A stretch of 64,000 nucleotides of DNA from Acidobacteriota bacterium (GTDB taxonomy: Bacteria > Acidobacteriota > UBA6911). This document shows, one piece after another, positions 26,990 through 41,253 of this stretch. Position 1 is the first letter of the stretch, and each line of letters begins with the position of its first letter. The notes under the pieces were generated by a model. That model saw only the letters and a list, made by a program, of their open reading frames with translations. It was not told the DNA's origin and ran no database searches. The stretch spans positions 1 through 64,000 of the forward strand of contig JAAYCX010000015.1 of the NCBI GenBank assembly GCA_012729555.1, given 5' to 3'. The translations under genes were made by a program, and so were the position numbers.

Positions 26990-28051
26990 GTGGAACTTTC
27001 GCTGCCGGTCGAACAGGAGAGGGAGATCGAGGCCATGGAGGCGCTGCTGCGCCCCGGCCCCGGCGCGGGGGGGAGCCTCTGCCTGCGCGGGACACTCTCC
27101 TGCGTCCGCTGCTGTCTCCCCCATATCGGCGGCGATTCCTGCCGCGACGCCGACGGCGCCTGGCTCGGTCCCGGGGGGCTTCTCCTGAAATTCGAGAATT
27201 TCAACCCGCGCCACGACCCCCGGATCGAGGCGTCGGGGTACGAGGACGCCTTCGCCGACGCCGGGAAGGGGGAGATGGAGCGGCGTTTTGCCGAAAGACG
27301 CCGGCTGTTCCTCGAAATCTACGACCCGGAACACCCCCGGGAATCGCTCCCCCGCTACATGAAGGCCAGCGCCGAAGCCGAAGGCTACCGGTACCGCCAC
27401 GGCGCGAATGCGGGCCCCGCCTCCCTCCATGTCGGCGGTTCCGTTCCCGCCCGGCCCCGCGGGAGAGGCGAGCTGCCCGAATGCCAGCTCCTGGGATTCA
27501 CGGACGAGGGGGGGCGGCCCGGGTGCCTCGCCCACCCCCTGGCAGAGACCTCCGGGGGGCATGACGGCCGCGACCTGGCGGGCTTCTTCCACCACACCGG
27601 CTGCTGCGACTGCGTGGAGTGCGAGGCGGGCCGCGAATTCCGCTACCTCAGCCCCGCCGCCCTCGGGGTGTTCGACCGGGCCGTCGACGGCCTGTCCTGG
27701 TACGAGTACAGCCGCCACGCCACGAGCGTGTTGGTCTACTACCTGCGCGCCTTCGACCACCTCCTCGTGCGCATGGACGAGGCCGCGGTCCTCGGCCGGC
27801 TCCCGCTCCGGCAACTGGCCTCCTTCACCAATGCCCTCTATGACGGCTGGCCGTTCCAAAGGCCCGCCGCCGCCGTACCCGCTCAGCCCGGCATGGGATT
27901 CATGAACACCCTGGACCTGCTCCGGGCCCCCATCCCCCTGCCGGAGAGGATCCTTTATATCGCCCTGCGCACGGGATTCCGGGCCGACACGTTCGGGGCG
28001 CAGCTCGGGAGAGCGAGGGAATGGATCGCGCGCCGGATGGAACGACTCTGA
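26990..28051 (+). CDS. Cysteine-rich protein of unknown function
   Basis: 353 aa if started at GTG 26990; ATG 27035 is an alternative, and neither has a strong Shine-Dalgarno. Cys clusters occur near the N-terminus (CLRGTLSCVRCCLPHIGGDSC), in the middle (ECQLLGF, then GCLAHP) and at about residue 205 (HTGCCDCVECEAG). These could hold zinc or Fe-S clusters, with a loose resemblance to the CxxCC-type cluster-binding proteins (YkgJ-like). The C-terminal third is helical. The stop overlaps the start of the RlmN-type gene by one base (TGATG), a sign of translational coupling. I cannot assign a function. Confidence 0.7.
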   Translation: MELSLPVEQEREIEAMEALLRPGPGAGGSLCLRGTLSCVRCCLPHIGGDSCRDADGAWLGPGGLLLKFENFNPRHDPRIEASGYEDAFADAGKGEMERRFAERRRLFLEIYDPEHPRESLPRYMKASAEAEGYRYRHGANAGPASLHVGGSVPARPRGRGELPECQLLGFTDEGGRPGCLAHPLAETSGGHDGRDLAGFFHHTGCCDCVECEAGREFRYLSPAALGVFDRAVDGLSWYEYSRHATSVLVYYLRAFDHLLVRMDEAAVLGRLPLRQLASFTNALYDGWPFQRPAAAVPAQPGMGFMNTLDLLRAPIPLPERILYIALRTGFRADTFGAQLGRAREWIARRMERL

Positions 28052-29151
28052 TGTCCAAAGAGATGCCGGACCAGGGGAGATGGGACCCCCGCGACCAGAG
28101 CCCCGCCGAATTTCTGCTCGAGGCCCGCCGTTGGTCGCTCCCCCTCGGCAACGCCCGGCGCTGGCTCGCCCTCCTCATCGGCGGGGGGGAGTGCGGCGTG
28201 GAGGAATGCCGCCGGGCCGGCATCCTGCCCCGCCGTCTGCTCGGTGCGGCCGCGGATCTGCCGCGGCTGCGCCTCCAGAGGCGCCTCCTGTCGAAGGATC
28301 CGGGGTTTGAAAAACTGGTGTTCGCCACCCCCGACGACAGGGTCGTGGAAACCGTCATCATCCCCCTCCACAAGCCGGGTGCTTTTTCGGTCTGCGTCTC
28401 CTCTCAGATCGGCTGCGTCATGGGGTGCAGCTACTGCGCCACCGGGAGGATTCCGGCCCCGAGGGACCTGCGCGGCTGGGAAATCGTCGACCAGTTCCTG
28501 CAGGCGCGTGCGATCGTGCGCGGCGCGGGGGGGCGGGTGACGGGGGCCGTTTTCATGGGGATGGGGGAGCCGCTCCTGAATTACGACCGCGTCATGGCGG
28601 CGGCCGAACTGCTCAGCTTCCCGGTTCACGCGGCCATCGGCGCCCGGGCGATCACGGTCGGCACCGTGGGCCTGGTCCCTGAAATCGAAAGGTTCACCGC
28701 GGAGGGGCGGAAATTCCGGCTCTCGATCAGCCTGGGGGCCGCGACGGATGAAAAACGGAGACTGCTGGTTCCGGCCGCCGCCCGCACCCCGGTCACCGAG
28801 GTCATGGCCGCCGCCCGGCGCCACGCCGAGTCCCGGCGCACGCGCGTCATGCTCTCCTACGTCTGCGTCGGCGGCGTCAATGTTTCGGAGGAGGACGCCC
28901 GCGCGCTCGGCCGGCTCGTCGGCGACACCCCCGTTCGGCTCGACCTGATCGACGTCTCGGACCCGACCGGCCGTTACGCCCCCCCGGACGCGGCGGAACT
29001 CGACGCGTTCCGCGACGCCCTGCGGCGCCACCTGGGACAGCCCGTTGCGAGGCGCTACTCGGGAGGGGGCGACATCAGCGCCGCCTGCGGGTCTTTGGGA
29101 GGATCGGGGGGAGGATCGGGGGGAGGATCGGGGGGAGGATCGATGGAATGA
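28051..29151 (+). CDS. rlmN: RlmN/Cfr-family radical SAM methyltransferase
   Basis: 366 aa. The family methylates C2 of an adenosine in 23S rRNA (RlmN also acts on some tRNAs). The radical-SAM motif is CVMGCSYC. The two mechanistic Cys are present: one in SVCVSSQIGC and one in ISAACGSL near the C-terminus. MGMGEPLLNYDRV is also typical. The N-terminal accessory domain is shorter than usual, and the C-terminus is unusual: a Gly/Ser tail generated by a 12-bp repeat directly after the conserved Cys segment. ATG 28051 is chosen because it overlaps the preceding stop. Given the divergence, it may be a RlmN paralogue rather than the housekeeping enzyme. Confidence 0.8.
   Translation: MSKEMPDQGRWDPRDQSPAEFLLEARRWSLPLGNARRWLALLIGGGECGVEECRRAGILPRRLLGAAADLPRLRLQRRLLSKDPGFEKLVFATPDDRVVETVIIPLHKPGAFSVCVSSQIGCVMGCSYCATGRIPAPRDLRGWEIVDQFLQARAIVRGAGGRVTGAVFMGMGEPLLNYDRVMAAAELLSFPVHAAIGARAITVGTVGLVPEIERFTAEGRKFRLSISLGAATDEKRRLLVPAAARTPVTEVMAAARRHAESRRTRVMLSYVCVGGVNVSEEDARALGRLVGDTPVRLDLIDVSDPTGRYAPPDAAELDAFRDALRRHLGQPVARRYSGGGDISAACGSLGGSGGGSGGGSGGGSME
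29101..29136 (+). repeat. 12-bp minisatellite in the 3' end of the RlmN-type gene
   Basis: GGATCGGGGGGA occurs three times in perfect tandem, with a partial fourth copy starting at 29137. Each unit adds Gly-Ser-Gly-Gly to the C-terminus without shifting the frame, so the tail length could vary by slippage. Confidence 0.9.
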
Positions 29152-29166
29152 GCCCCCTCCCCTGTT

Positions 29167-30954
29167 TCACTTCCGGCCGTAGTTGCAGAGCCCGTCCTCG
29201 CACAGCTTGACCGCCGGCATGCGCAGCGGCTTCTCGTCCAGCCTGATCCCCCCCGCGGGCACCCACCGGTCCACCGAAGCGGTGGCGTAATGGACGTAAT
29301 CGGTGGTGTGAAAAATCGGGTTGGTCTCCCCCCCCACCACCAGGAAATGGATACCCTCGGGCTTGAGGAACGGGGAGCCCGTCTGGTCGGCCAGCCACCG
29401 GCCCAGGCGGTCCGGGTCCTCGAAACCCTCCCCCTCGAGCGTCTTCGCCGCCAGCGGGTCCATGACGAACGTCAGGCTCCCCATGGCGTTCATCGCCCGG
29501 GCGCTCGACAGCAACCCTCCGGCGGTCCCCAGCCCCAGGGTCGTCACGTTCCAGCCGCGGAAGATACTGACGGTGCTCTCCGATTCCTTGAACCCCTGCC
29601 GGACGTGAAACGGTTTCCAGGGGCTTTTCTCTTCGTTTTCGGCGCAGCACTGGTTGGTGAAGCTCAGCCCGTTGCCTATGGTGGCCATGAAGGTGTCCCC
29701 CGCCCGCGCGTCCCCGAAATTGATGCTCATCAGGGTCCAGGCCCTTCCGATCACGGAGTTGGCGTAGTTGAAGGGCCCCAGGGCGCCGACGCCGCTGTTC
29801 ATGCCGATGGTCCCGGCCACCGGGCCGTTGACCACCACCATGCTCCCGTAGGACCCGGTGGAACTGGGCATGGCGGGGTGCTGCGTGGAGGCGATCGCCA
29901 GGATGACGGGGAGATGTTCCGGGCGGGCGCCGGCCATCACGGCGCACACCGCCACCTTCTCGACGGTGTAGTCGTTCAGTTCCTCGTGCGTCGTGATCGA
30001 CATCCGGCCGACCACCTCCCCGGGGTCGTGGTCGGTCCCGGTGAGCATCTCGGCCACCCTCTCCTCGGTCGGCAGCACGATGGGGAGCCCGTCGGTCCAG
30101 CCGTTCTCGAGGAACCGCCGCCGGAGTCCGGCCTCGGTTCCGGGCTCGAGCAAACGCGCCCTTCGGGGCCGCACGGGAACCTCGGGATTCTTCTCCGCCC
30201 CGGTCAGCGGCCGGGTGAGCGCATCGACCACCTCTTCCATCAGCCTGCGCCCGGTCACGGGGTCGTCCCCGTGGATATATTCGCGCAGGGTCTCGCGCGG
30301 GACCCAGGCGACCGGGTAGGGGGGAAAGGTCCAGCGCAGGTTCATGCCGTGCGACCGCCCGTCCCGCAGGACGTACTCGGCGAAGCGCGCGGTGACGATG
30401 GGGGCGGTGGGAACTCCGAACTCCCCTTCCATGGTGCGGGCGAACTCGGCGAGACTCGCCGAGCAGCCGTCTCAACCGCCGACGCCGAAGACCACCCCGT
30501 CCGCCTTCTTCTTGAGTTCCACCCAGAGTTCGGGGCTGTCGGAAAAGGCGTTGCCGCTCTTGACGTGCACCACCGTCCTGACGGCGGGCATGTTTTGGCG
30601 GAACCACTCCTGCATCTCCTCGAGAAACGCCTTCCCCCCCTCGAAACCGGTGTCCACCAGGTAGATCGTCTTCCCCTCCAGGCTCTCGAGCCTGGGGGCC
30701 ATCCTGAGGGGGAGCAGTTCGTCGCGCGACATCACCGGCTGGGTTTCGGGGTCGAAGATGGCCATCATGTGCGCCCCCGCCTCCCCGCGCCGGCCGAACC
30801 GTCCCGACGGCTGCCCCCGGGGATCGAGCACGGTCAGCATCTTCTCCCCGGCTCCGGCCGAACCGGCCATGAATTTGCAGCCCGCGTGGGTCGCGAGCGA
30901 CGCCAGCAGGATCGCGCCGCCGATGATTCCAGCCCCGGCATGTCTTCTACGCAT
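29167..30954 (-). CDS. Predicted exported selenoprotein with U-x-x-C motif (UGSC-like), in-frame TGA read as Sec
   Basis: 595 aa if the TGA at 30472-30474 is read as selenocysteine (residue 161). The N-terminus (ATG 30954, GGAGAGGGG upstream) has a hydrophobic signal-like helix ending near LATHAGC. Residues about 50-200 form the redox domain, with GKTIYLVDTGFEGG and ADGVVFGVGG, then U-D-G-C and SLAEFARTMEGEFGVPT on the far side of the TGA. This continuity across the TGA matches UGSC-type (seleno)proteins, in which U and C are two residues apart. Residues about 260-595 form a second domain (NGWTDGLPIVLPTEERVAEML, then EKVAVCAVMAGARPEHLPVIL), known from uncharacterised proteins. A SECIS-like hairpin follows the TGA. 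It lies 79 bases after the octaheme lipoprotein gene. The alternative is a nonsense-disrupted gene. Confidence 0.78.
30445..30474 (-). promoter_or_regulatory. Sec codon and bacterial-type SECIS hairpin
   Basis: Minus strand: the TGA (30474-30472) is followed by eight bases, then a perfect 7-bp stem CTCGGCG/CGCCGAG (30463-30457 with 30451-30445) closing a five-base loop AGTCT. The apical loop is 16-20 bases after the TGA with a G in its second position. This fits the known bacterial rule of a stem-loop whose apex lies about 16-37 bases downstream with a G among the first loop bases. Confidence 0.7.
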
Positions 30955-31033: not shown

Positions 31034-33406
31034 TCAGGAATCCCCCTCGAGCCCCCGGAGCCGGTTCTCCAGGAGCCCCCTCGCCTCGGGCGCCAGCGGG
31101 CCGGCGGAGAGCGCGCGCCGGTACAGCTCCCGGGCCTCGGCCGCCTTCCCCTGCCGTTGATAGATATCGCCCAGGAGAAAGACGGCATCGAGATGGGCGG
31201 GGGCGTCCCGCACGACCCGCCGCAGCACCCCGGCGGCGCCGGAGGCGTCTCCCCCCTGATCAAGATAGAAAGCGAGCGAATAGCCGTACTGCGCGTTTCC
31301 GGGCTGCAATCGATAGGCGCGGCGCAGGTGATCGATCGCCGACTTCGTTTTTCCGGTCCCGGCGTGGATGACGCCCAGGTTGTAGGCGGCGACGGCCGAA
31401 CCGGGATCGAGCCTGGCCGCCGCCTCGAAGCGGGCTGCGGCCTCGTCGACGCGCCCCATCTCCCCCAGCAGCAGGCCCAGGTTCAGGTTCACCTCCGCGC
31501 TGCCCGGCTGCAGCTCGAGCGCCCGGCGCAGGCTCGCTTCCGCCTTGTCGTTCTTCCCGAGCGCGTTATAGGCGAAGGAGACGTTGACCTGGGGCATGAT
31601 CTCGCGCGGCGCCAGGCGGATGGCCGTCTCGTACAGCTGCGCCGCCCGCCCGTACTCCCCCAGGGAGAAGTGAAAGCCCCCCAGGTTGAAGTGCGAAGCC
31701 CAGTGATCGGGACGGGCGTCGAGCGTCGCCTTGAATTCCGCGGCCGCCCGGTCGAAGGCCTCCGCCGTCCCCGGGTCCAGCATTTCCCGCGGCACCGCCG
31801 CCAGGGCCGCCGCGGCCCGGATGCGGACCAGGCGCGACGGGTCCCGGACCGCCCCGCCGAGGGCCGCCAGCGCGGGGGCGTCCACGCGGTCCCCGAGTTG
31901 TTCGGCCGCGCTCGAGCGCACGAGCGGGGAGGGGTCCGCGAGCGCCCGGACCAGGGCGGGCCACTTCCGCTCGTCGTCGCAGGGCCGGATCAGCCGGATG
32001 AGGGAGGCGGCGGACACCGCGTCGCGCTCCTTCGCCCCGAGGTAGGCGAGGATGTCCGGGAGCCTCTTCCAGTCGCGCCGGCGCGCCGCCTCGACCAGCC
32101 CGGCCCGGTGGAGGACCGGCGCCTGGTAGTCCCGCTTCCGCCAGCGGCGCACCCACCCGTCCGCCCAGGCGGCGTCCTTCTCCTCGTGGCAGAGGTTACA
32201 TGCGTTGGGCGATTTCCAGGCCAGGGTCGCCGCGGGGGTGGGGGGGAGCATCGAATGGTCGCTGCGGCGCATGCGGGCGAATTCGGTCATGGGCATGTGG
32301 CACGCGATGCAGCGGCTCCCCTCGCTCCCCTGCGGGTGGCGGGAGTGGTCGGCGGCGTTCTTCACGTTTTCGGCATGGCACGGCATGCAGGCCTGGTTCG
32401 TGTCCCCGGCCGCGAAGCGGAACCTTCCGCTCGAGGTGTGGCAATGCATGCAGTCGAGCATCCCCGAATTCGCGCACGGGCTCATCAGCCACTGGGTGTA
32501 GGTGTAGTTCTCCCCCAGGTCCCGCCCGTCGGGGTGGTAATCGGGGTGCTCGAACAGCCCCAGGTCGAAGTGGTCGAAGAAGTCCTCCCCCGGGACATAG
32601 GAAGCGGTCAGCGGGGCGCCCTTGGCGTGGCAGACGGAGCAGGCGCCGCTGGAAGCCTCGCTGCTGTACCGCGGCGGAACGATGACGTCGATTTTGAGGT
32701 CCGCAGGGGGCTTCCCCTTCTCCGCGGCGCGGCAGACCCGCACGTGCTCGACGGCGGAGCCGTGGCACGCCTCGCAGTTGATCCCCGGCTCCCGCCAGGC
32801 GGAGCGGTAGGTATCGGTCGCGAGGTCGTAGTTGCGCGCAAACTGGCTGACGTGGCACCCCCAGCAGGAGGTGTTGAAGGTGTACTCCGCGTCCCTCCAG
32901 TCGACCGTTTCCTCCTCGAGGTCGTGAAAGTGGCGGATCCCGCTGGCGGCGGTGTCGAACCAGGCCTGCCTCCGCACGTCGTAGGCCAGGGGGAGAACCT
33001 GCAGCCGGCCGCGCTCCATGGGGGTCAGGAAATAATAGACGTTCTTCCCCCCGAGCGCGTGCTCGAGGGGGTAGTCCCGCTCCCCTTCCGGCCCCTTTTC
33101 CCTGACCCGGGCCTGCCGCCCGTCGAATTCCACCCGGTAGTCGGCGTCGCCGATCCTCAGGCCGCCCCCCTGCGGCGTGAGCTTCGTCCGGTAGAGCTCC
33201 GCCGTGAACGGCTGCATGGCGAGGCCATGGTGGGAACCGGCCCACAGCTGGTAGAACTTTTCGTGGCACTCGCGGCAGGACTCGCTCCCGGCGTAGCCGG
33301 AAGCCTCCGCCTCCCCTCCCCCGGCCGTCCGCGGCGAATCCCCGCGCCGGCATCCGCCCAGGGCCAGGACCGCGGCCAGCGACAGCGCCAGGATCCCCCT
33401 TTTCAT
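31034..33406 (-). CDS. Octaheme c-type cytochrome lipoprotein with HEAT-like and TPR repeats
   Basis: 790 aa. The signal peptide ends in LALGGC, so Cys19 should be lipidated. Eight CxxCH haem motifs follow: CRECH (44-48), CWGCH, CEACH, CSVCH, CMHCH, CMPCH, CIACH and CNLCH, all before about residue 410, arranged as in cytochrome c554-type proteins. A HEAT-like alpha-repeat region (LADPSPLVRSSAAEQLGDRV, RDPSRLVRIRAAAALA) spans about 460-560, and five or six TPR units (SHFNLGGFHFSLGEYGRAAQLYETAIRLAP and others) fill about 570-780. It is probably a surface or periplasmic electron-transfer scaffold. Its start overlaps the preceding gene stop (ATGA), and the predicted selenoprotein gene follows. 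Confidence 0.9.
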   Translation of the reverse strand: MKRGILALSLAAVLALGGCRRGDSPRTAGGGEAEASGYAGSESCRECHEKFYQLWAGSHHGLAMQPFTAELYRTKLTPQGGGLRIGDADYRVEFDGRQARVREKGPEGERDYPLEHALGGKNVYYFLTPMERGRLQVLPLAYDVRRQAWFDTAASGIRHFHDLEEETVDWRDAEYTFNTSCWGCHVSQFARNYDLATDTYRSAWREPGINCEACHGSAVEHVRVCRAAEKGKPPADLKIDVIVPPRYSSEASSGACSVCHAKGAPLTASYVPGEDFFDHFDLGLFEHPDYHPDGRDLGENYTYTQWLMSPCANSGMLDCMHCHTSSGRFRFAAGDTNQACMPCHAENVKNAADHSRHPQGSEGSRCIACHMPMTEFARMRRSDHSMLPPTPAATLAWKSPNACNLCHEEKDAAWADGWVRRWRKRDYQAPVLHRAGLVEAARRRDWKRLPDILAYLGAKERDAVSAASLIRLIRPCDDERKWPALVRALADPSPLVRSSAAEQLGDRVDAPALAALGGAVRDPSRLVRIRAAAALAAVPREMLDPGTAEAFDRAAAEFKATLDARPDHWASHFNLGGFHFSLGEYGRAAQLYETAIRLAPREIMPQVNVSFAYNALGKNDKAEASLRRALELQPGSAEVNLNLGLLLGEMGRVDEAAARFEAAARLDPGSAVAAYNLGVIHAGTGKTKSAIDHLRRAYRLQPGNAQYGYSLAFYLDQGGDASGAAGVLRRVVRDAPAHLDAVFLLGDIYQRQGKAAEARELYRRALSAGPLAPEARGLLENRLRGLEGDS

Positions 33407-34530: not shown

Positions 34531-34640
34531 GGTCCCGTATTATGCATAAAACCAATCGAATGAAAAGGACAGGAGCCGTCTGCCCCGGAGCAGGCGGGTC
34601 TTTAATGCGCCTTTTCGGCATCGAGGCTGGAGGGGTCGGA
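34484..34640. repeat. Direct repeat, copy A: start of the RidA-fold gene and upstream DNA
   Basis: About 155 bases aligned almost without gaps to 37437-37592, in the same orientation. Matching blocks include AGCTGATCCGGTCCGGC (17 identical bases), ATCCATCCATG, CGTATTAT and TCGGCATC. This copy contains the functional start codon (34530). Confidence 0.75.
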
Positions 34641-34732
34641 ATGCTGCAGCTTTCGCTCTCTATCCGCAGGGCAAATCCTGTTCCGGCAATTGACCCTGAA
34701 ACAAATTCAGGCGATCGCCTATGGGTTTTTTA

Positions 34733-34761
34733 TTGCATTATATTATCTTTTTTGTTATATA
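34733..34761 (+). promoter_or_regulatory. Promoter of the AbiE operon, possibly leaderless
   Basis: TTGCAT (34733-34738), 17-base spacer, TATATA (34756-34761), in an AT-rich patch. The expected transcription start coincides with ATG 34768, and no Shine-Dalgarno is present, so the mRNA could be leaderless. The antitoxin probably autoregulates this site, as known for AbiEi proteins. Confidence 0.45.
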
Positions 34762-34767
34762 TCTGCA

Positions 34768-35403
34768 ATGAAATGGCAGTCACTGCTGGAATTGGTCGCT
34801 GATGAGCCGGTGTTTTCCTCGGCCCTCCTGTTGTCGGGGAAGTTGTCGGCGCCCCAGGTGCGGCTGCAACTGTCCCGATGGGTGAAGGATGGTCGACTGA
34901 TTCGACTTCGCCGTGGTTTGTATGCCCTGGCCCCGGTCTGGCGCAAGGTGGAGCCGCATCCGTTCCTGGTCGCCAATCGGCTTCAGCGCGGGTCTTATGT
35001 GAGTACACAATCGGCGCTGGCGTATCACGGCATGATTCCCGAATATGTCCCGGTCGTGACCGGCGTCGGCCCGGGCCGTCCCGAAACAGTCCGGAATCCC
35101 CTGGGGGCATTCCAGTTCAATCATCTGACATTGCGCCTTCTCTTCGGGTATTCCCAGGTTGAAGTCGCCCCGAGGCAGTTTGCCTTTGTGGCTTCGCCCG
35201 AAAAGGCGCTCCTGGACCTGATTCACCTGACCGCCGGTGCGGACTCCGAGAAATATCTCCGGCAATTGAGGCTGCAGAATCCGGCAGCCTTCAACCTGGC
35301 GGCCATGAACGAACTGGCCGAACGGAGCGGCAAACCGAAGCTGATCCGTGCTGCCCGCCTTGTCGGACCGTTGCTCGAGGAAGAAAGAGGAGAGTGCCTA
35401 TGA
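34768..35403 (+). CDS. abiEi: AbiEi-type antitoxin/transcriptional regulator
   Basis: 211 aa. The N-terminal winged helix (FSSALLLSGKLSAPQVRLQLSRWVKDGRLIRLRRGLYAL) is the AbiEi antitoxin domain that binds its own promoter. The C-terminal part (SYVSTQSALAYHGMIPEYVPVVTGVGP and FAFVASPEKALLDLIHLT) is the AbiEi antitoxin domain. ATG 34768 is used; 26 more in-frame codons upstream are not family-like. The stop overlaps the toxin start by four bases (ATGA), the usual AbiE arrangement. Together they act as a type IV toxin-antitoxin/abortive-infection system. Confidence 0.9.
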   Translation: MKWQSLLELVADEPVFSSALLLSGKLSAPQVRLQLSRWVKDGRLIRLRRGLYALAPVWRKVEPHPFLVANRLQRGSYVSTQSALAYHGMIPEYVPVVTGVGPGRPETVRNPLGAFQFNHLTLRLLFGYSQVEVAPRQFAFVASPEKALLDLIHLTAGADSEKYLRQLRLQNPAAFNLAAMNELAERSGKPKLIRAARLVGPLLEEERGECL

Positions 35404-36203
35404 AGGAGCATCTGCGCCGGCTGGCCTCCGCCGCAGGGAACGATCTTGCCCGCACCTGTCTGGTCCGGGAGTATCTGCAGGCGCGGATCCTGGAAGCGCT
35501 GCAGGACACCGGCGCATTTCTCCGATGGGCCTTTCTGGGCGGCACGGCGTTGCGCTTTTTGTTCAGCATCCCGCGATTTTCGGAAGACCTCGATTTTTCT
35601 CTCATCGATCCGGAAAAAAACGCTGGTTTTGGATCGGCTGCGGCCGGAATCAAGCGACTTTTTGAGCGGGAAGGCTATTCGATTGACGTAAGGGCGAGTG
35701 AGAAAAGGACGGTTTCATCCGCCTGGATCCGCTTTCCCGGGCTCCCCCACGAAATCGGCATTTCCCCCCATGCGGCCCGGGTGCTCTCCGTAAAACTGGA
35801 ACTGCACACCAATCCTCCTGCGGGAGCGCACATCGTAAATACCGTTGTTCGCCGGCACGTCACGTTGAACCTGTGCCACCATGACCTGTCTTCCCTGCTC
35901 GCGGGAAAGATCCACGCGGTTCTCAGTCGCCAATGGACAAAAGGCCGCGATCTCTACGACCTGGTCTGGTACCTCGCCGACCGCGCTTGCCCGGTTCCGA
36001 ACCTTGACCTCCTGAATGCCGCATTGGCACAAACAGGGTGGAAGGGGCCGCGTATAACGGAAGCTGATTGGCGCGAGCAATTGAGCAGCCGAATCAAGTC
36101 CCGGGATTGGGAAAAAGCCCGAGCCGATGTGAAGCCATTCCTGGAGCGCGCACGGGATCTGGACCTGCTGACTAAGGAGGTGCTTCTCAGCCTCCTGAAA
36201 TGA
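35400..36203 (+). CDS. abiEii: AbiEii-type nucleotidyltransferase toxin
   Basis: 267 aa. The nucleotidyltransferase core is visible: LGGTALRFLFSIPRFSEDLDFSL (GG-S/T followed by D-x-D), then the helical region (SSLLAGKIHAVLSRQWTKGRDLYDLVWYLA) with the conserved K-x-R-D-x-Y-D motif. AbiEii toxins transfer GTP or CTP to targets such as tRNA. ATG 35400 has GGAG 8 bases upstream. It is paired with the AbiEi antitoxin. The 3' end abuts decayed minus-strand DNA, marking the right edge of the module. Confidence 0.92.
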   Translation: MKEHLRRLASAAGNDLARTCLVREYLQARILEALQDTGAFLRWAFLGGTALRFLFSIPRFSEDLDFSLIDPEKNAGFGSAAAGIKRLFEREGYSIDVRASEKRTVSSAWIRFPGLPHEIGISPHAARVLSVKLELHTNPPAGAHIVNTVVRRHVTLNLCHHDLSSLLAGKIHAVLSRQWTKGRDLYDLVWYLADRACPVPNLDLLNAALAQTGWKGPRITEADWREQLSSRIKSRDWEKARADVKPFLERARDLDLLTKEVLLSLLK

Positions 36204-36665
36204 TCCTTTTGGCTCTTTGACAATTGCTCCTTAATGTACACCTCAGCATCAACTATTCTCTGCAGCAAATTCGGGTCTTTGCACTCATGTTTCAAAGCGC
36301 AAAGCAGAAGCATGGTAGCCCTAGGATTGCTATCCTCTATAGGAATAATAACAGCGGGATAACTGAATGATAGGCGCATTAGTGATAGAACTCGGTCAAG
36401 TCGATCTGGGTTAAGCAATTCCCCTATTTCATACGCCCTAGCGATTGTACGCCCCAGCCAATCACCGCTCCTCACAATACCCTTTTCGACAGGCGAAGCA
36501 TCCTCCGGTGTCCACGTTTTCATGGAAAATCCGGGGGGCGGCTCTATCCAGTTCTTCACCGTCTCAATATCCGTATTTTTGAGCTGCGACAGGGAATCAT
36601 TCGCCAGCACCATCCCAGCGATGAAGATCATAATTGCGCAGATTGTGGAATTTGATCGAGAGCAT
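36204..36665 (-). pseudogene. Decayed exported protein, copy 1 of a tandem paralogue pair
   Basis: Shares with the next gene upstream the segments PPAGIPMKKW-like, NPDRLxRVLSLxRLSFS and MLLLxA. The body reads from 36631 (MIFIAGMVLANDSLSQ), but a better start, ATG 36665 with GAGGGGG upstream, is one base out of frame. Removing one A near 36652 would give a full signal peptide ending in VLA. At the 3' end the frame runs on without a stop into antisense of abiEii (to 35954), whereas the paralogue stops soon after VQLEEAKKW. So the tail was probably lost at the junction with the AbiE module. Function unknown. An intact gene at 35954-36631 cannot be excluded. Confidence 0.5.
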
Positions 36666-36677
36666 CCCCCTCGCCTT

Positions 36678-37169
36678 TCAAATACCGACGTGATTCAGTT
36701 CTCTCCATTTTTTTGCCTCCTCTAACTGCACCTTAATATAATTTTCTACATCAATGCTCTTTTGGCGCAATTTAATATCTTCATGCTCCTGTTTTTATGC
36801 GAAAAGCAGGAGCATCGTCACAGTAGGGGTCTTGCCCTCTTCATTGGTGATAATTGTTGGTACGCTGAATGATAGCCGCCTGAGTGATAGAACTCGCTCC
36901 AGCCGGTCTGGATTCCGCAATTCCCTTCTGGGATAAACACGCGCTATCCCTTTTCCTATACTATCTCCACTCCTACTAATACTATTTTCCAAGATTGCAA
37001 TTCCCTCTGGATACCACTTCTTCATTGGAATCCCAGCTGGCGGTTCAACCCGACTCTTGACTGCATCCATACTAATATAGCACCCACACGAGGATTGATT
37101 CGCCACAGCGAATGACGCTTCGCAGATAATAATTGTGAACATAACTCCAATCGCGATCTTCATCATCAC
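36678..37169 (-). pseudogene. Exported protein with premature stop, copy 2 of a tandem paralogue pair
   Basis: The ATG run at 37163-37169 is preceded by GGAGAGGG. A Sec signal (MKIAIGVMFTIIICEASFAVA) and a small mature domain follow. The frame stops at TAA 36795-36797 right after MLLLFA. Reading through gives 38 more codons (KQEHEDIKLRQKSIDVENYI and on to TGA 36678-36680) that match copy 1 (KHECKDPNLLQRIVDAEVYI). So the TAA is a nonsense mutation replacing the Leu of the paralogue. A truncated 124-residue product may still be made. No known domain is recognised. Lower GC than the flanking backbone suggests transfer. Confidence 0.6.
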
Positions 37170-38160
37170 CTTCCCTCTCCGAAGGTTCCGAACAGCGAAT
37201 TCTCAGGTCTCCAATGAACATTTCCTTCACTAAATGAATACATACTAAAATTGTTTTATTACCATTGTTGGGATCAACCGCTTGCATAGGATTGCCATGC
37301 CCGGGGTGTTTGCACAACACGCGAGGGACTTCTCGCGTTTCATTGGGCCGTCCTCCCGGCGCGTTCTTTGCGCCGACAGCCTCTGAAACTATCAAATCGC
37401 GGCAACCGGAGTCATGCACGCTTGCCAAAATGACACAGCTGATCCGGTCCGGCATCCAGGACAAAAAGGGTGAATCCATCCATGTTCGCGTATTATCCAC
37501 AAATCGGGCCCAATGGGAAGGATACGGCCGTGTGCGCGGGATCAGGCGAGTATTAAATATGAATTCTCGGCATCCAGGCTGAATGGGCAGCATAAAAGAT
37601 TGCCCGCGGATCGGAGGGTACCCCGGGACGCATTGCAATACGAGGAACATGCGTTGATCTTGATAGACAAAAGGCTACATTAAAAATTTCAGAATATGAG
37701 ATCACTAATCCGAGACGCAGGTGTAACAAGTCATCGATTCAGAACACCCGTTTGTGTGCCTCCCGGAGTATCCGGCAAGGGTCGACCTCGGCCCTGCGGA
37801 TTCCGGAAGGATAGGAAGGATCAGCCGCCGTTTTCATACAGGCGCCGGTATTCTTTTTCCCCTCCCCCCTTCTGATCTGTCTTATTATGTCGAATGCGAA
37901 AGCACCATCTTGACTTTGAGGGGCATTTTAACCGAAGATCGGGGCGGTCAAGATGCATTTTTGCCACACCGGTTTTGTGCCAGCTTTCGTGGCGCCCCTT
38001 ATTGGAAACACGGTGCATTGACAGACGGCATTCATGGCGGGCCGCTGCTCATTTCACCTATAGTGCTGTGTTTTGAGGTAATTTTTTTTCGATTTAATTG
38101 AATTCAGAATTCGATCAACTGGGTTAACGGTTTGAGTTCGCTTTCGATTGGAGAAATATC
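37170..38160. other. Gene-poor accessory DNA
   Basis: About 1 kb with no convincing gene. It contains two short hairpins, CGCGAG/CTCGCG (37320-37337) and CGGCGC/GCGCCG (37357-37375), the diverged repeat copy B (37437-37592), and a stretch at about 37905-37980 with GGTCAAGATGCATTTTTGCC and a nearby inverted CATCTTGAC, resembling the terminal repeats of IS21-type elements. Small ORFs in either strand have no ribosome-binding site or homology I recognise. The right edge should carry the promoter of the IPT/TIG gene. Confidence 0.5.
37437..37592 (-). pseudogene. Direct repeat, copy B: 5' fragment of a second RidA-fold/chorismatase-like gene
   Basis: Diverged copy of 34484-34640. On the minus strand it still encodes MDGFTLFVLDAGPDQL, against MDGFALFTMEAGPDQL in the intact gene. 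Similarity ends at codon 16, so only the start and upstream region remain. It flanks the AbiE module and paralogue pair on the side opposite copy A. Confidence 0.6.
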
Positions 38161-40296
38161 TTGAAAAAGAATTCTATTTCGTGTGCTTCCGCCATCCTGC
38201 TTTTTGGGTTATGCCTTCTTTTCCTGCAGCTAATCACGGGCTGTAGCTCTTCGAAGGCGTCGGCGCCGGCCGCCTCAAATCCAGTTCCATCGATTACCAG
38301 TTTATCGTCCAACGTTGCTGCCGGAATTCCGGATATAATTTTGCGAGTAACTGGAAAAGGTTTCATTCGCAGCTCCATAGTGCGTTGGAACGGCAGCAAC
38401 CGAACAACTACCTATATAAGCGACACACAGTTGGATGCCTCCATTCCAGCTGCCGACATCGCAACGCCAATCACCGTGGCTATAACAGTTTTTAATCCCG
38501 GTCCAGGAGGCGGGACTTCGAACTCCGCCAGTTTTTCCATCAACGCTACGGGACCAGCCATTTCTTCCCTTAGCTCCTCCAGTGCGGTTGCTGGCTCCGC
38601 ATCCTTCATTGTAACCGTCACCGGGAGAGGATTTTCATCATCTATGGTAATGCGCTGGAACGGTTCCGCTCGGCCAACGGTGGTTTTGAGCGCCTCTCAA
38701 TTACAGTCCATCATCTATTATAGCGATATGGAGACGGCCGGCACTTATGCGATAACAGTGTATTCGTCCTCGCAGGATGTCACTTCCAATGCAATCCCTT
38801 TCACCGTTACCAATCCTTTGCCGGTAATTTCCAATCTAAGTTCTGCGTCCGCCGCAGTGAACGATGAAACTATAATAGACGTTATGGGATATGGTTTTCT
38901 TTCGACATCCGCAGTCTATGTGGATGGATCCAGTTATCCGACAGGCTTTATCAATCAATCGAGACTTCAGGTCACCATTCCCGCCGGCGTCCTTTCACTT
39001 GCCAATCCATCAACCGTGAGGGTTGTTAATCCCGCTCCCGGCGGCGGATCCTCACAATCCATAATGCTATATTCGTATCTAAGCCTGCAAGCCCGGGACA
39101 TGGTCTACGATCCATTTACGCGATTAATCTACGCCTCCGTTTCCGGCACCGCCGGAGCCATCGGCAATACTATTACTGAAATCGATCCGGAAGCAGGCAC
39201 GATTGGGCGCTCCTTCTACATCGGGAGCGAACCTGGAAAGCTGGCCATCAGCAGCGATGGAAAGCTCATCTATGCATCATTGGATGGCGCTGCCGCAGTA
39301 CGCGTTTTCGACATACCCTCACGCACCCCTGGATTGCAATTTTCTCCTGGGAGCGACTCCCAACGTGGCCCGCTCTATGCTGAAGATATTGCGATTATGC
39401 CCGAAAATAACGGCACCATCGCTTTATCCAGGAAGTATAAAGGACTTTCACCCCGGCACGCCGGCGTAGCGATATACGACAATGGCATTATGCGGCCTCA
39501 GGCTACTGCTTCGCACACGGGGAGCAATGCCATTGAATTCTCTGCTTCAGCCTCCACCCTATACGGATACAACAATGAAAGTTCAGGTTTTGGATTCCGA
39601 AAGATGTGGGTGGACGATTCTGGAGTTACGATAACCAGCGTTTCCCAAGATATCCTCAGCGGCTATGGGGCCGATATAAAGTTTGAAAATGGCCGCATTT
39701 ATTCCACAACCGGATTGGTTTTCGATCCGGAGACGTTGGATTTGCTTGGTACTTATGCATTGCCGGATCCCGCAGATAATTTGCCACAACTTGACTCATC
39801 CATTGGTCGGACCTTTTTTCTGGTTGATTCATTTTCAAGTGGTAAAAAGGAACTTTTGGCATTTGATCAAAACACCTTCGCCTCACTCGGTTCGCAGGAG
39901 ATTGCGGGCGTCTCAGGATCCATTATCAGCTTTATTCGTTGGGGGACAAACGGGGTAGCTTTGCTGACCGACGGCGGTCAGCTGTTCGTGCTTCGCAGCG
40001 ACCTTGTCCTGCCTATTGATTCCGCAGCGTATACGCCTGGCTTATCAGCGCTCAGCAAAAATGCAGAAAGAGGCGGAGGGAATTTTTTCCTGACTATATA
40101 TGGCGCTGGCTTTGTGCCCGGAGCGGTGGCATGGCTGAACGGCGAGGAGCGGACCACCAGTTATATCAGCGATACCGAGTTGCGTGTGGCCATACCATCT
40201 GCGGACATCCAAGAGACAGGCTCCGCTGCAATCATGGTATCCAACCCGGGAGTTATGGGGATACCGTCTAATCACTTGATCCTGAAGATCGAGTAA
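38161..40296 (+). CDS. IPT/TIG-domain surface lipoprotein with beta-propeller-like region
   Basis: 711 aa from TTG 38161 (GGAG about 7 bases upstream). The signal ends in LITGCSS, so Cys28 should be lipidated. Residues 40-310 hold three IPT/TIG immunoglobulin-like repeats, each with the pattern PxITSLSS...AGxxxxxxxVTGxGF...VxWNG (WNGSNRTTTYISDTQL, WNGSARPTVVLSASQL). Residues 320-630 contain propeller-like strands (DMVYDPFTRLIYASVS, KLAISSDGKLIYASLDG). A fourth TIG repeat ends the protein (WLNGEERTTSYISDTELRVAIPSADI). Such proteins are common at the surface of Acidobacteriota and related groups. GC and codon use are lower than the backbone. It is likely an adhesin or polysaccharide-binding protein. 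Stands alone. Confidence 0.88.
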   Translation: MKKNSISCASAILLFGLCLLFLQLITGCSSSKASAPAASNPVPSITSLSSNVAAGIPDIILRVTGKGFIRSSIVRWNGSNRTTTYISDTQLDASIPAADIATPITVAITVFNPGPGGGTSNSASFSINATGPAISSLSSSSAVAGSASFIVTVTGRGFSSSMVMRWNGSARPTVVLSASQLQSIIYYSDMETAGTYAITVYSSSQDVTSNAIPFTVTNPLPVISNLSSASAAVNDETIIDVMGYGFLSTSAVYVDGSSYPTGFINQSRLQVTIPAGVLSLANPSTVRVVNPAPGGGSSQSIMLYSYLSLQARDMVYDPFTRLIYASVSGTAGAIGNTITEIDPEAGTIGRSFYIGSEPGKLAISSDGKLIYASLDGAAAVRVFDIPSRTPGLQFSPGSDSQRGPLYAEDIAIMPENNGTIALSRKYKGLSPRHAGVAIYDNGIMRPQATASHTGSNAIEFSASASTLYGYNNESSGFGFRKMWVDDSGVTITSVSQDILSGYGADIKFENGRIYSTTGLVFDPETLDLLGTYALPDPADNLPQLDSSIGRTFFLVDSFSSGKKELLAFDQNTFASLGSQEIAGVSGSIISFIRWGTNGVALLTDGGQLFVLRSDLVLPIDSAAYTPGLSALSKNAERGGGNFFLTIYGAGFVPGAVAWLNGEERTTSYISDTELRVAIPSADIQETGSAAIMVSNPGVMGIPSNHLILKIE

Positions 40297-40504
40297 CTAA
40301 TCCGTAATTCAAAAGTTGCATTATGAAGCGCCCTTTTTGCTTTGCACCCGGGATGAATAAATCATTGTTTCTTCCGATCCTCAAAAAAGTCTAGGGCTGT
40401 CAGTTGCTAAAATCGGTTATTAATCAAACACTGGCGGAGCTGCTCCCCAAAATTCGGTCAGGAAATTAGGGTGGAAAATCCTTGCCTCCGGACAAGGCGA
40501 GACA

Positions 40505-40681
40505 ATGGCAACGAAAAAGCGAAGACAGTTTACAGCGGAATTCAAAGACCGAGTAGCAATAGAAGCCGTAAAGGGACAAAAGACCATCCAGGAAATAGCT
40601 TCTCATTACCAAGTGCATCCGAACATGGTTACGATCTGGAAGCGTCAGGCTCTGGCCGAATTGCCGAAGGTTTTCTCGTCG
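40505..40681 (+). pseudogene. IS3-family transposase OrfA, 3'-truncated
   Basis: Begins with the typical OrfA helix-turn-helix (KKRRQFTAEFKDRVAIEAVKGQ, EIASHYQVHPNMVTIWKRQ) and stops matching after PKVFSS (residue 59). OrfA is normally about 90-100 aa and is followed by OrfB, absent here. The frame runs to 40732 in unrelated sequence. The probable left end of the element lies in 40440-40500. A joint with RHS-type DNA follows. Confidence 0.8.
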
Positions 40682-40960
40682 CTATCTGCCCGAGAGGCTT
40701 GCCGAACGAATCGTATTCTATCGTCCGGATGATGCTGCCGGCGCTGGATGCAAGTGCCCGGGCGCTACCCCGAAGATCCGTCAGGAAAAAGACCGGGCTC
40801 GAGCTTCCCTGTTGGCACCACGGCTTGTTATCTATCCCCGGACCATTCTCGTAACACACAAGGCTTCCATCGCTGTTCTCCTCCAGCACCACGTGATCGC
40901 CGTCATAGGTGTATCGCGTCCATTCCGATCCCCTGATTCGCGCTTTAGGGCAATCACAGG
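40682..40960 (-). pseudogene. RHS/YD-repeat protein fragment
   Basis: Minus-strand frame containing TRYTYDGDHVVLEE, VFFLTDLRGSARALASSAGSIIRTIEYDSFGKPLG. These are the hallmark of the last YD repeats before the variable tip of RHS proteins. Both ends are missing: the N-terminal side ends near 40960 close to the tRNA, the other side at the IS3 fragment. It is a remnant of a large polymorphic-toxin or surface-protein gene cut by an IS3 event. Confidence 0.75.
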
Positions 40961-41022
40961 CAAAGTCATGCCTTTTGGGGCGGGATTCGAAAAATTGAAT
41001 TCCTGTATGTAGTTGATTTTGC

Positions 41023-41110
41023 TGGTGCCGAAGGAGGGGGTCGAACCCTCATGCCCGCAAGGGGCGCGGGATTTTGAGTCCCGTGCGTCTGCCAGTTCCG
41101 CCACTTCGGC
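41023..41110 (-). tRNA. tRNA-Leu (anticodon CAA)
   Basis: Acceptor arms GCCGAAG (41104-41110, minus) and CTTCGGC (41027-41033) pair fully; discriminator A; CCA is encoded (41023-41025). The anticodon loop CTCAAAA within CGGGA/TCCCG gives anticodon CAA. A long variable arm (CGCCCCTTGCGGGC) and the TTCGA T-loop confirm a class II leucine tRNA. Its 3' end faces the accessory DNA at 34.5-41.0 kb. Confidence 0.95.
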
Positions 41111-41204
41111 CCGGCGGCGGTTTCCCGCCGCGGTTTGGGCGCCCATAGTAGCCCATCGGCTCCTCCAGAGTCAATCGACACAAACGGGAGCGAAGGGGGG
41201 CGGT

Positions 41205-41233
41205 TTGCCCGGGGAACGATTTTCTGATATAAT
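41205..41233 (+). promoter_or_regulatory. Promoter of carD
   Basis: TTGCCC (41205-41210), 17-base spacer, TATAAT (41228-41233), a perfect -10 box. The start would be near 41240 with a short leader holding GGAGG 5 bases before ATG 41254. Confidence 0.65.
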
Positions 41234-41253
41234 GGCTGGCTTCCGGAGGTATT

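Follow-up and report, generated by a model that had tools for sequence, protein, structure and literature searches.

An in-frame TGA in the window, by which we mean the whole 64,000-nucleotide stretch of Acidobacteriota DNA analysed here, almost certainly serves as a selenocysteine (Sec) codon, and the two ORFs that it seems to separate would be one selenoprotein gene. Since the apparent stop would code for Sec, the two ORFs amount to one exported selenium enzyme; taken as a whole, the explanation that we favour, and regard as very probable, is a single Sec gene whose product is an exported two-domain reductase, with a selenolate helped by the Cys at position +3. The features are collected in Table 1.

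Table 1. Coordinates of the predicted selenoprotein gene, its parts, and its upstream neighbour in the window
Feature	Position	Strand	Details and evidence
Predicted complete selenoprotein gene	29167..30954	-	595 residues, Sec at 161, TGA stop 29167-29169
In-frame TGA, predicted to be read as Sec (U161)	30472..30474	-	TGA in 6/6 orthologues; Cys at this column in distant homologues
UGSC domain PF24696, residues 66-226, with U161-D-G-C164 inside	30277..30759	-	Genome profile search places the domain here with 1 TGA inside
N-terminal signal sequence, possibly of a lipoprotein (MRRRHAGAGIIGGAILLASLATHAGC)	30877..30954	-	Read from sequence; Cys26 invariant in 6 orthologues
C-terminal partner domain, possibly Unknown_1 of PMC2398784	29170..30117	-	Alignment of 49 sequences
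Predicted SECIS: TGA and apical hairpin	30442..30474	-	Arms 30463-30457 and 30451-30445; RNAfold, low synonymous divergence, compensatory change
Upstream cytochrome c-like, HEAT and TPR protein gene	31034..33406	-	Same strand as the selenoprotein gene

The initial annotation had described two minus-strand ORFs (30954-30475 and 30471-29167) that share a frame and have a TGA (30474-30472) as their sole separator, and this is indeed the arrangement found. Around the site, the joined protein reads ADGVVFGVGG-U161-DG-C164-SASLAEF. It had also been claimed that only joining the ORFs completes a UGSC-like domain; PF24696 matches residues 66-226 of the joined protein, spanning the TGA, at 8.3e-20 and 72.1 bits, which passes the gathering cut-off of 25 bits.

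The source assembly (3.83 Mb, 98.9% complete, 98 contigs) gives profile matches to SelA (468.8 bits), SelB (380.4 bits), and SelD (368.7 bits), and contains a tRNA-Sec (72.4 bits) with anticodon TCA, that is, UCA; its selD gene has an in-frame TGA of its own (TAAGUAAKMG). Of five orthologues (L067-L071), which are 96, 78, 77, 74, and 72% identical to the window protein, four come from other Acidobacteria MAGs and the fifth from one labelled Deltaproteobacteria; sulfidic-spring and groundwater MAGs are among the sources. All five carry TGA at the Sec site and none has a further in-frame TGA in its coding sequence. Conservation continues beyond the TGA, and purifying selection is indicated both before and after it (dN/dS about 0.08-0.24 where dS is unsaturated). 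With sel genes in the genome, homologues that carry U or C, and conservation that does not end at the TGA, the hidden selenoprotein proposed at the outset is supported.

Bacterial SECIS elements form a hairpin directly 3' of the UGA, with the apical loop about 16-37 nt away. The hairpin reported in the initial annotation is exact (CTCGGCG-AGTCT-CGCCGAG, 7 bp, with 8 intervening bases after the TGA), and its loop starts about 16-17 nt past the UGA, within the distance rule. When the 45 nt from the TGA onward were folded, RNAfold gave -20.6 kcal/mol (z = -2.35 vs shuffles). Across the six orthologous sequences, synonymous divergence over codons +1 to +11 after the TGA is 0.155, the lowest among 495 windows of 11 codons, compared with 0.50 over codons +41 to +380; the G, S, A, S, and A codons at +2, +4, +5, +6, and +8 show zero synonymous changes. 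Such low divergence is what one would expect of a SECIS within a coding region. Two wobbles and, in L070, one compensatory double change from C-G to U-A leave the stem paired. Because all five orthologues, of which the most distant is 72% identical in protein sequence, keep the TGA and hairpin, and because these coincide with the lowest synonymous divergence, the combination is not due to chance. A GU in the apical loop was considered as a SECIS signature, and its excess is not significant (34/49 observed vs 32 expected from the encoded amino acids). The fold z-score pooled over paralogues is only moderate (mean -0.9); the SECIS claim therefore rests on conservation among the orthologues.

One should ask whether the TGA might simply be a genuine stop, yielding two separate proteins. 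Table 11 reads it as a stop, and gene callers would cut the gene in two there; a simple codon-score caller does divide both the window gene and its paralogues. We regard this as extremely unlikely, since translation of the downstream ORF could start at an ATG no earlier than 30432, which, as had been pointed out, lies past the motif, since the TGA is kept in six orthologues and, together with Cys at +3, in 49 distinct homologues, and since the source genome has a full Sec system. That the gene is decaying, and the TGA a nonsense mutation or an error in the MAG assembly, has a negligible likelihood: the assembly is fragmented into 98 contigs, but independent MAGs and the paralogues have this codon too, selection persists past the TGA, and synonymous conservation peaks at the hairpin. 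These conservation data refute the decaying-gene and assembly-error reading. As every one of these genes would be broken up by the usual gene callers, a large selenoproteome is probably hidden in annotations.

With the TGA read as U, homologues were found to carry either U or C at the site, as anticipated. Cys occupies the Sec column in Neorhizobium, Variovorax, Natrinema, Roseovarius, Haloterrigena, Halalkalicoccus, Arthrobacter, and Halorientalis, and TGA occupies it in Acidovorax T1 and Paracoccus ferrooxidans. In the latter (L124, CP038202.1), the UGSC gene lies about 3.4 kb from selB and is annotated as two small hypothetical proteins. In all, 49 distinct family members have TGA at this column with Cys at +3. 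The initial annotation had held that unrelated residues here would count against Sec; U or C does stand in these homologues, but some acidobacterial paralogues have neither. In these Sec-less members of the genus, the frame is open and the column is occupied by Ser, Thr, Asn, Gly, Ala, or Leu, and no Cys was seen there among the acidobacterial sequences read; Sec-less paralogues with Ser or another residue instead of Cys appear to be new. Sec is thus dispensable for some family members, and the fold would have roles that need no selenolate. In a tree of 82 partner domains, Sec-less members fall in several clusters, with Sec, Cys, and neither interspersed, and the window gene and its orthologues form a well-supported group of six, nested within a larger clade of acidobacterial Sec members.

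A PF24696 search of 100 genomes found 19 UGSC domains in the source genome, 10-27 in each of nine other genomes of the genus, and one each in four more positive genomes outside it. The source genome also holds 19 copies of the C-terminal domain, 18 of which have TGA at the Sec site when read individually; the 19th (C11:104776-105675) belongs to a TGA-free frame of 633 residues and adjoins an FAD_oxidored gene. The presence of 19 UGSC proteins (18 with TGA) in a 3.8 Mb genome, and of 10-27 UGSC domains per member of the genus, looks new. Motifs in this genome include USSC, UGSC, UDGC, USQC, USVC, USLC, UPGC, UDSC, UWGC, and UHGC. Two Sec-less two-domain copies, L142:5175-6884 (-) in the source genome and L120 in Sporomusa, adjoin FAD-dependent oxidoreductase genes, which may mark a different electron partner.

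The window protein is very likely exported, given an N-terminal hydrophobic segment that ends in AGC. A signal-peptide-like start was recognised by eye in nearly all paralogues of the same genome whose N-termini were read, and the apparent predominance of signal peptides among acidobacterial UGSC copies likewise looks new. The acidobacterial paralogues have no conserved gene neighbourhood, and hence neither a trx gene nor any hint of a substrate that accompanies them. A conserved neighbourhood was also sought around the orthologues of the window gene and not found; the upstream cytochrome/TPR gene, which is not conserved beside them, is therefore probably outside the system.

The fusion to a large C-terminal domain of unknown function, noted initially, is borne out, and profile searches of Pfam, NCBIfam, and PDB gave this domain no recognisable relative. 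An alignment of 49 sequences places N399, R404, and E439 among its invariant residues. Because the full-length AlphaFold model, built from six close orthologues, is poor (pLDDT 38), no fold can be assigned to it. At L021-L024, the domain is encoded on its own, next to the gene of a stand-alone UGSC selenoprotein, and in bacterial and haloarchaeal plasmid loci it is adjacent or fused to UGSC in 14/14 cases. It looks to be an obligate UGSC partner, often beside thioredoxin reductase, and this too appears new: a TrxR-like gene adjoins the pair or is close to it in Arthrobacter (there together with trxA), Variovorax SRS16, Roseovarius, and Neorhizobium. Homologue neighbourhoods also hold CoA transferases, TRAP/tricarboxylate (TTT) transporters, SDRs, and aconitase X. 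On plasmids of Vibrio europaeus and Sporomusa termitida (L119, L120), genes for aconitase X and DUF126 are found close to a Sec-less fused homologue, a context that may point to a pathway of the hydroxy-acid or hydroxyproline type.

The Sec domain appears to be distantly related to the active-site region of GrdB/PrdB, the selenoproteins of glycine, sarcosine, betaine, and D-proline reductases (PF07355, TIGR01917, TIGR01918), a relation that looks new. The glycine reductase selenoprotein B model TIGR01917 weakly matches stand-alone UGSC proteins at the active-site segment (5.4e-5 for L023). When a profile of 55 UGSC rows was aligned by hhalign with one of 12 GrdB-like sequences from Acidobacteriota, the probability was 91.7 (E 7.7e-7, 68 columns), and the Sec and Cys of one profile fell on those of the other; 60 column-shuffled controls gave at most 0.8, and a reversed and an unrelated profile gave 0.3 each. 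Both groups have a strand-U-x-x-C-helix active-site region, and some UGSC homologues have a thioredoxin link, although only about 70 residues can be aligned and the remainder is unlike. GrdB/PrdB proper (PF07355, TIGR01918) had no match in the source genome at the thresholds used. GrdB-like genes were seen in 79/297 Acidobacteriota genomes (L083-L093 and other matches), mostly under the TIGR01918 cut-off; they match only the C-terminal part of that model, and many are short (about 250-330 residues) with an in-frame TGA. These short genes may represent another little-studied selenoprotein group.

The window protein is probably a thiol-dependent reductase; a GrdB-like attack on carbon is possible, if somewhat doubtful. 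In 2008, it was suggested that the family comprises general thioredoxin-like thiol oxidoreductases or peroxide-detoxifying selenoproteins. The U-x-x-C motif and the TrxB genes beside Cys-form homologues agree with this, and the fold is described as likely Trx-like in PMC2398784. We nevertheless find such a role unlikely here. A thioredoxin fold runs beta-alpha-beta-alpha-beta-beta-alpha and has its active site at the first helix. In the AlphaFold model of the UGSC domain, of moderate confidence (pLDDT 62), the beta-alpha repeats are parallel and Sec follows the third strand, a predicted topology that would tend to argue against the thioredoxin-like fold of 2008; there is also the profile similarity to GrdB, and the catabolic-looking neighbourhoods (CoA transferases, TRAP/TTT transporters, SDRs) would be odd for a general antioxidant. 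Foldseek with the same model found nothing below E 0.001, and PDB profile searches gave nothing significant. Sec could instead be a ligand in a surface protein that binds or stores selenium or metal, or handles organometals. Export, the sulfidic-spring and groundwater MAGs, and the extra Cys conserved in the window's orthologue group (C436, C437, C585, and C590) would suit such a protein, but these Cys are not conserved family-wide, Cys replaces Sec in operons linked to thioredoxin reductase, and no metal-resistance genes occurred in the neighbourhoods sampled, so that we hold it to be highly unlikely.

For the preferred reading, a selenium-dependent reductase, SelB and tRNA-Sec would read the UGA at 30474-30472 as Sec at the SECIS hairpin that starts 8 nt downstream. 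The product would be an exported two-domain protein, in which the U-x-x-C UGSC domain is fused to the partner that is adjacent to it elsewhere. The selenolate of Sec161 would attack a substrate bound where the UGSC and C-terminal domains meet, and Cys164 would resolve the intermediate as a selenenylsulfide. A dithiol donor would then recycle the enzyme, namely thioredoxin/thioredoxin reductase in cytosolic relatives and some periplasmic donor here; cytosolic thioredoxin cannot be the direct donor for exported acidobacterial forms, and the neighbourhoods of these forms that were sampled revealed no dedicated donor gene. The chemistry would be reductive, of the GrdB/PrdB type, and not simple disulfide exchange. 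The large number of paralogues hints at a variety of substrates. A bolder proposal, which we would put on the unlikely side, is that one genus has expanded a GrdB/PrdB-related, partner-fused, exported selenoenzyme to ~10-27 paralogues, each reductively cleaving a different small molecule, with a subset that lost Sec to Ser, and not to Cys, and changed function. If true, selenium would be central to the extracellular catabolism of this organism.

The UGSC family (PF24696 / NF041046) shares with the window protein the domain itself, Sec or Cys at the site, and Cys at +3, whereas the window protein has the motif UDGC, is fused, is predicted to be exported, and is amplified in its genome. As it scores 50.9 bits against NF041046, under the cut-off of 125, it lies outside that equivalog. 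Zhang and Gladyshev described the UGSC selenoprotein family in 2008, together with a UGSC/Unknown_1 fusion, and placed UGSC among the most abundant selenoproteins in aquatic metagenomes (PMC2398784). That fusion resembles the window protein in joining a UGSC selenoprotein to a conserved domain of unknown function, and the C-terminal domain studied here may well be Unknown_1; the text accessible there makes no mention of genomic amplification.

A 2026 review lists UGSC without a function (PMC13188914). In a 2016 survey of >5,200 bacterial genomes, UGSC is entered with 26 and 33, which we read as organisms and proteins (PMC5029168); next to these figures, 18 TGA copies in one genome are exceptional. 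Selenoproteomes of 57 and 63 have been reported in other organisms (PMC13188914), and the 18 counted here are UGSC copies only. A full-text literature search that covered few subscription papers, and so is weak evidence of novelty, returned no acidobacterial UGSC expansion and no GrdB relation. The partner domain, the thioredoxin-reductase neighbours, and the distant GrdB relation together offer a first testable biochemical frame for UGSC.

Some further observations were made in the window. A radical SAM gene (28021-29151, +) is convergent with the selenoprotein gene; it was not found beside orthologues L068, L070, and L071, and is kept in the closest relative, L067. Just downstream of the stop codon of the selenoprotein gene, at 29085-29160, there is a short tandem repeat of about 12 bases (GATCCTCCCCCC, minus strand). 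The region 34600-41250 is almost without high-scoring coding ORFs according to the codon-score caller; it contains an AbiEi-antitoxin-like ORF, a TIG-domain ORF, and, at its end, a tRNA-Leu, and is possibly a foreign island.
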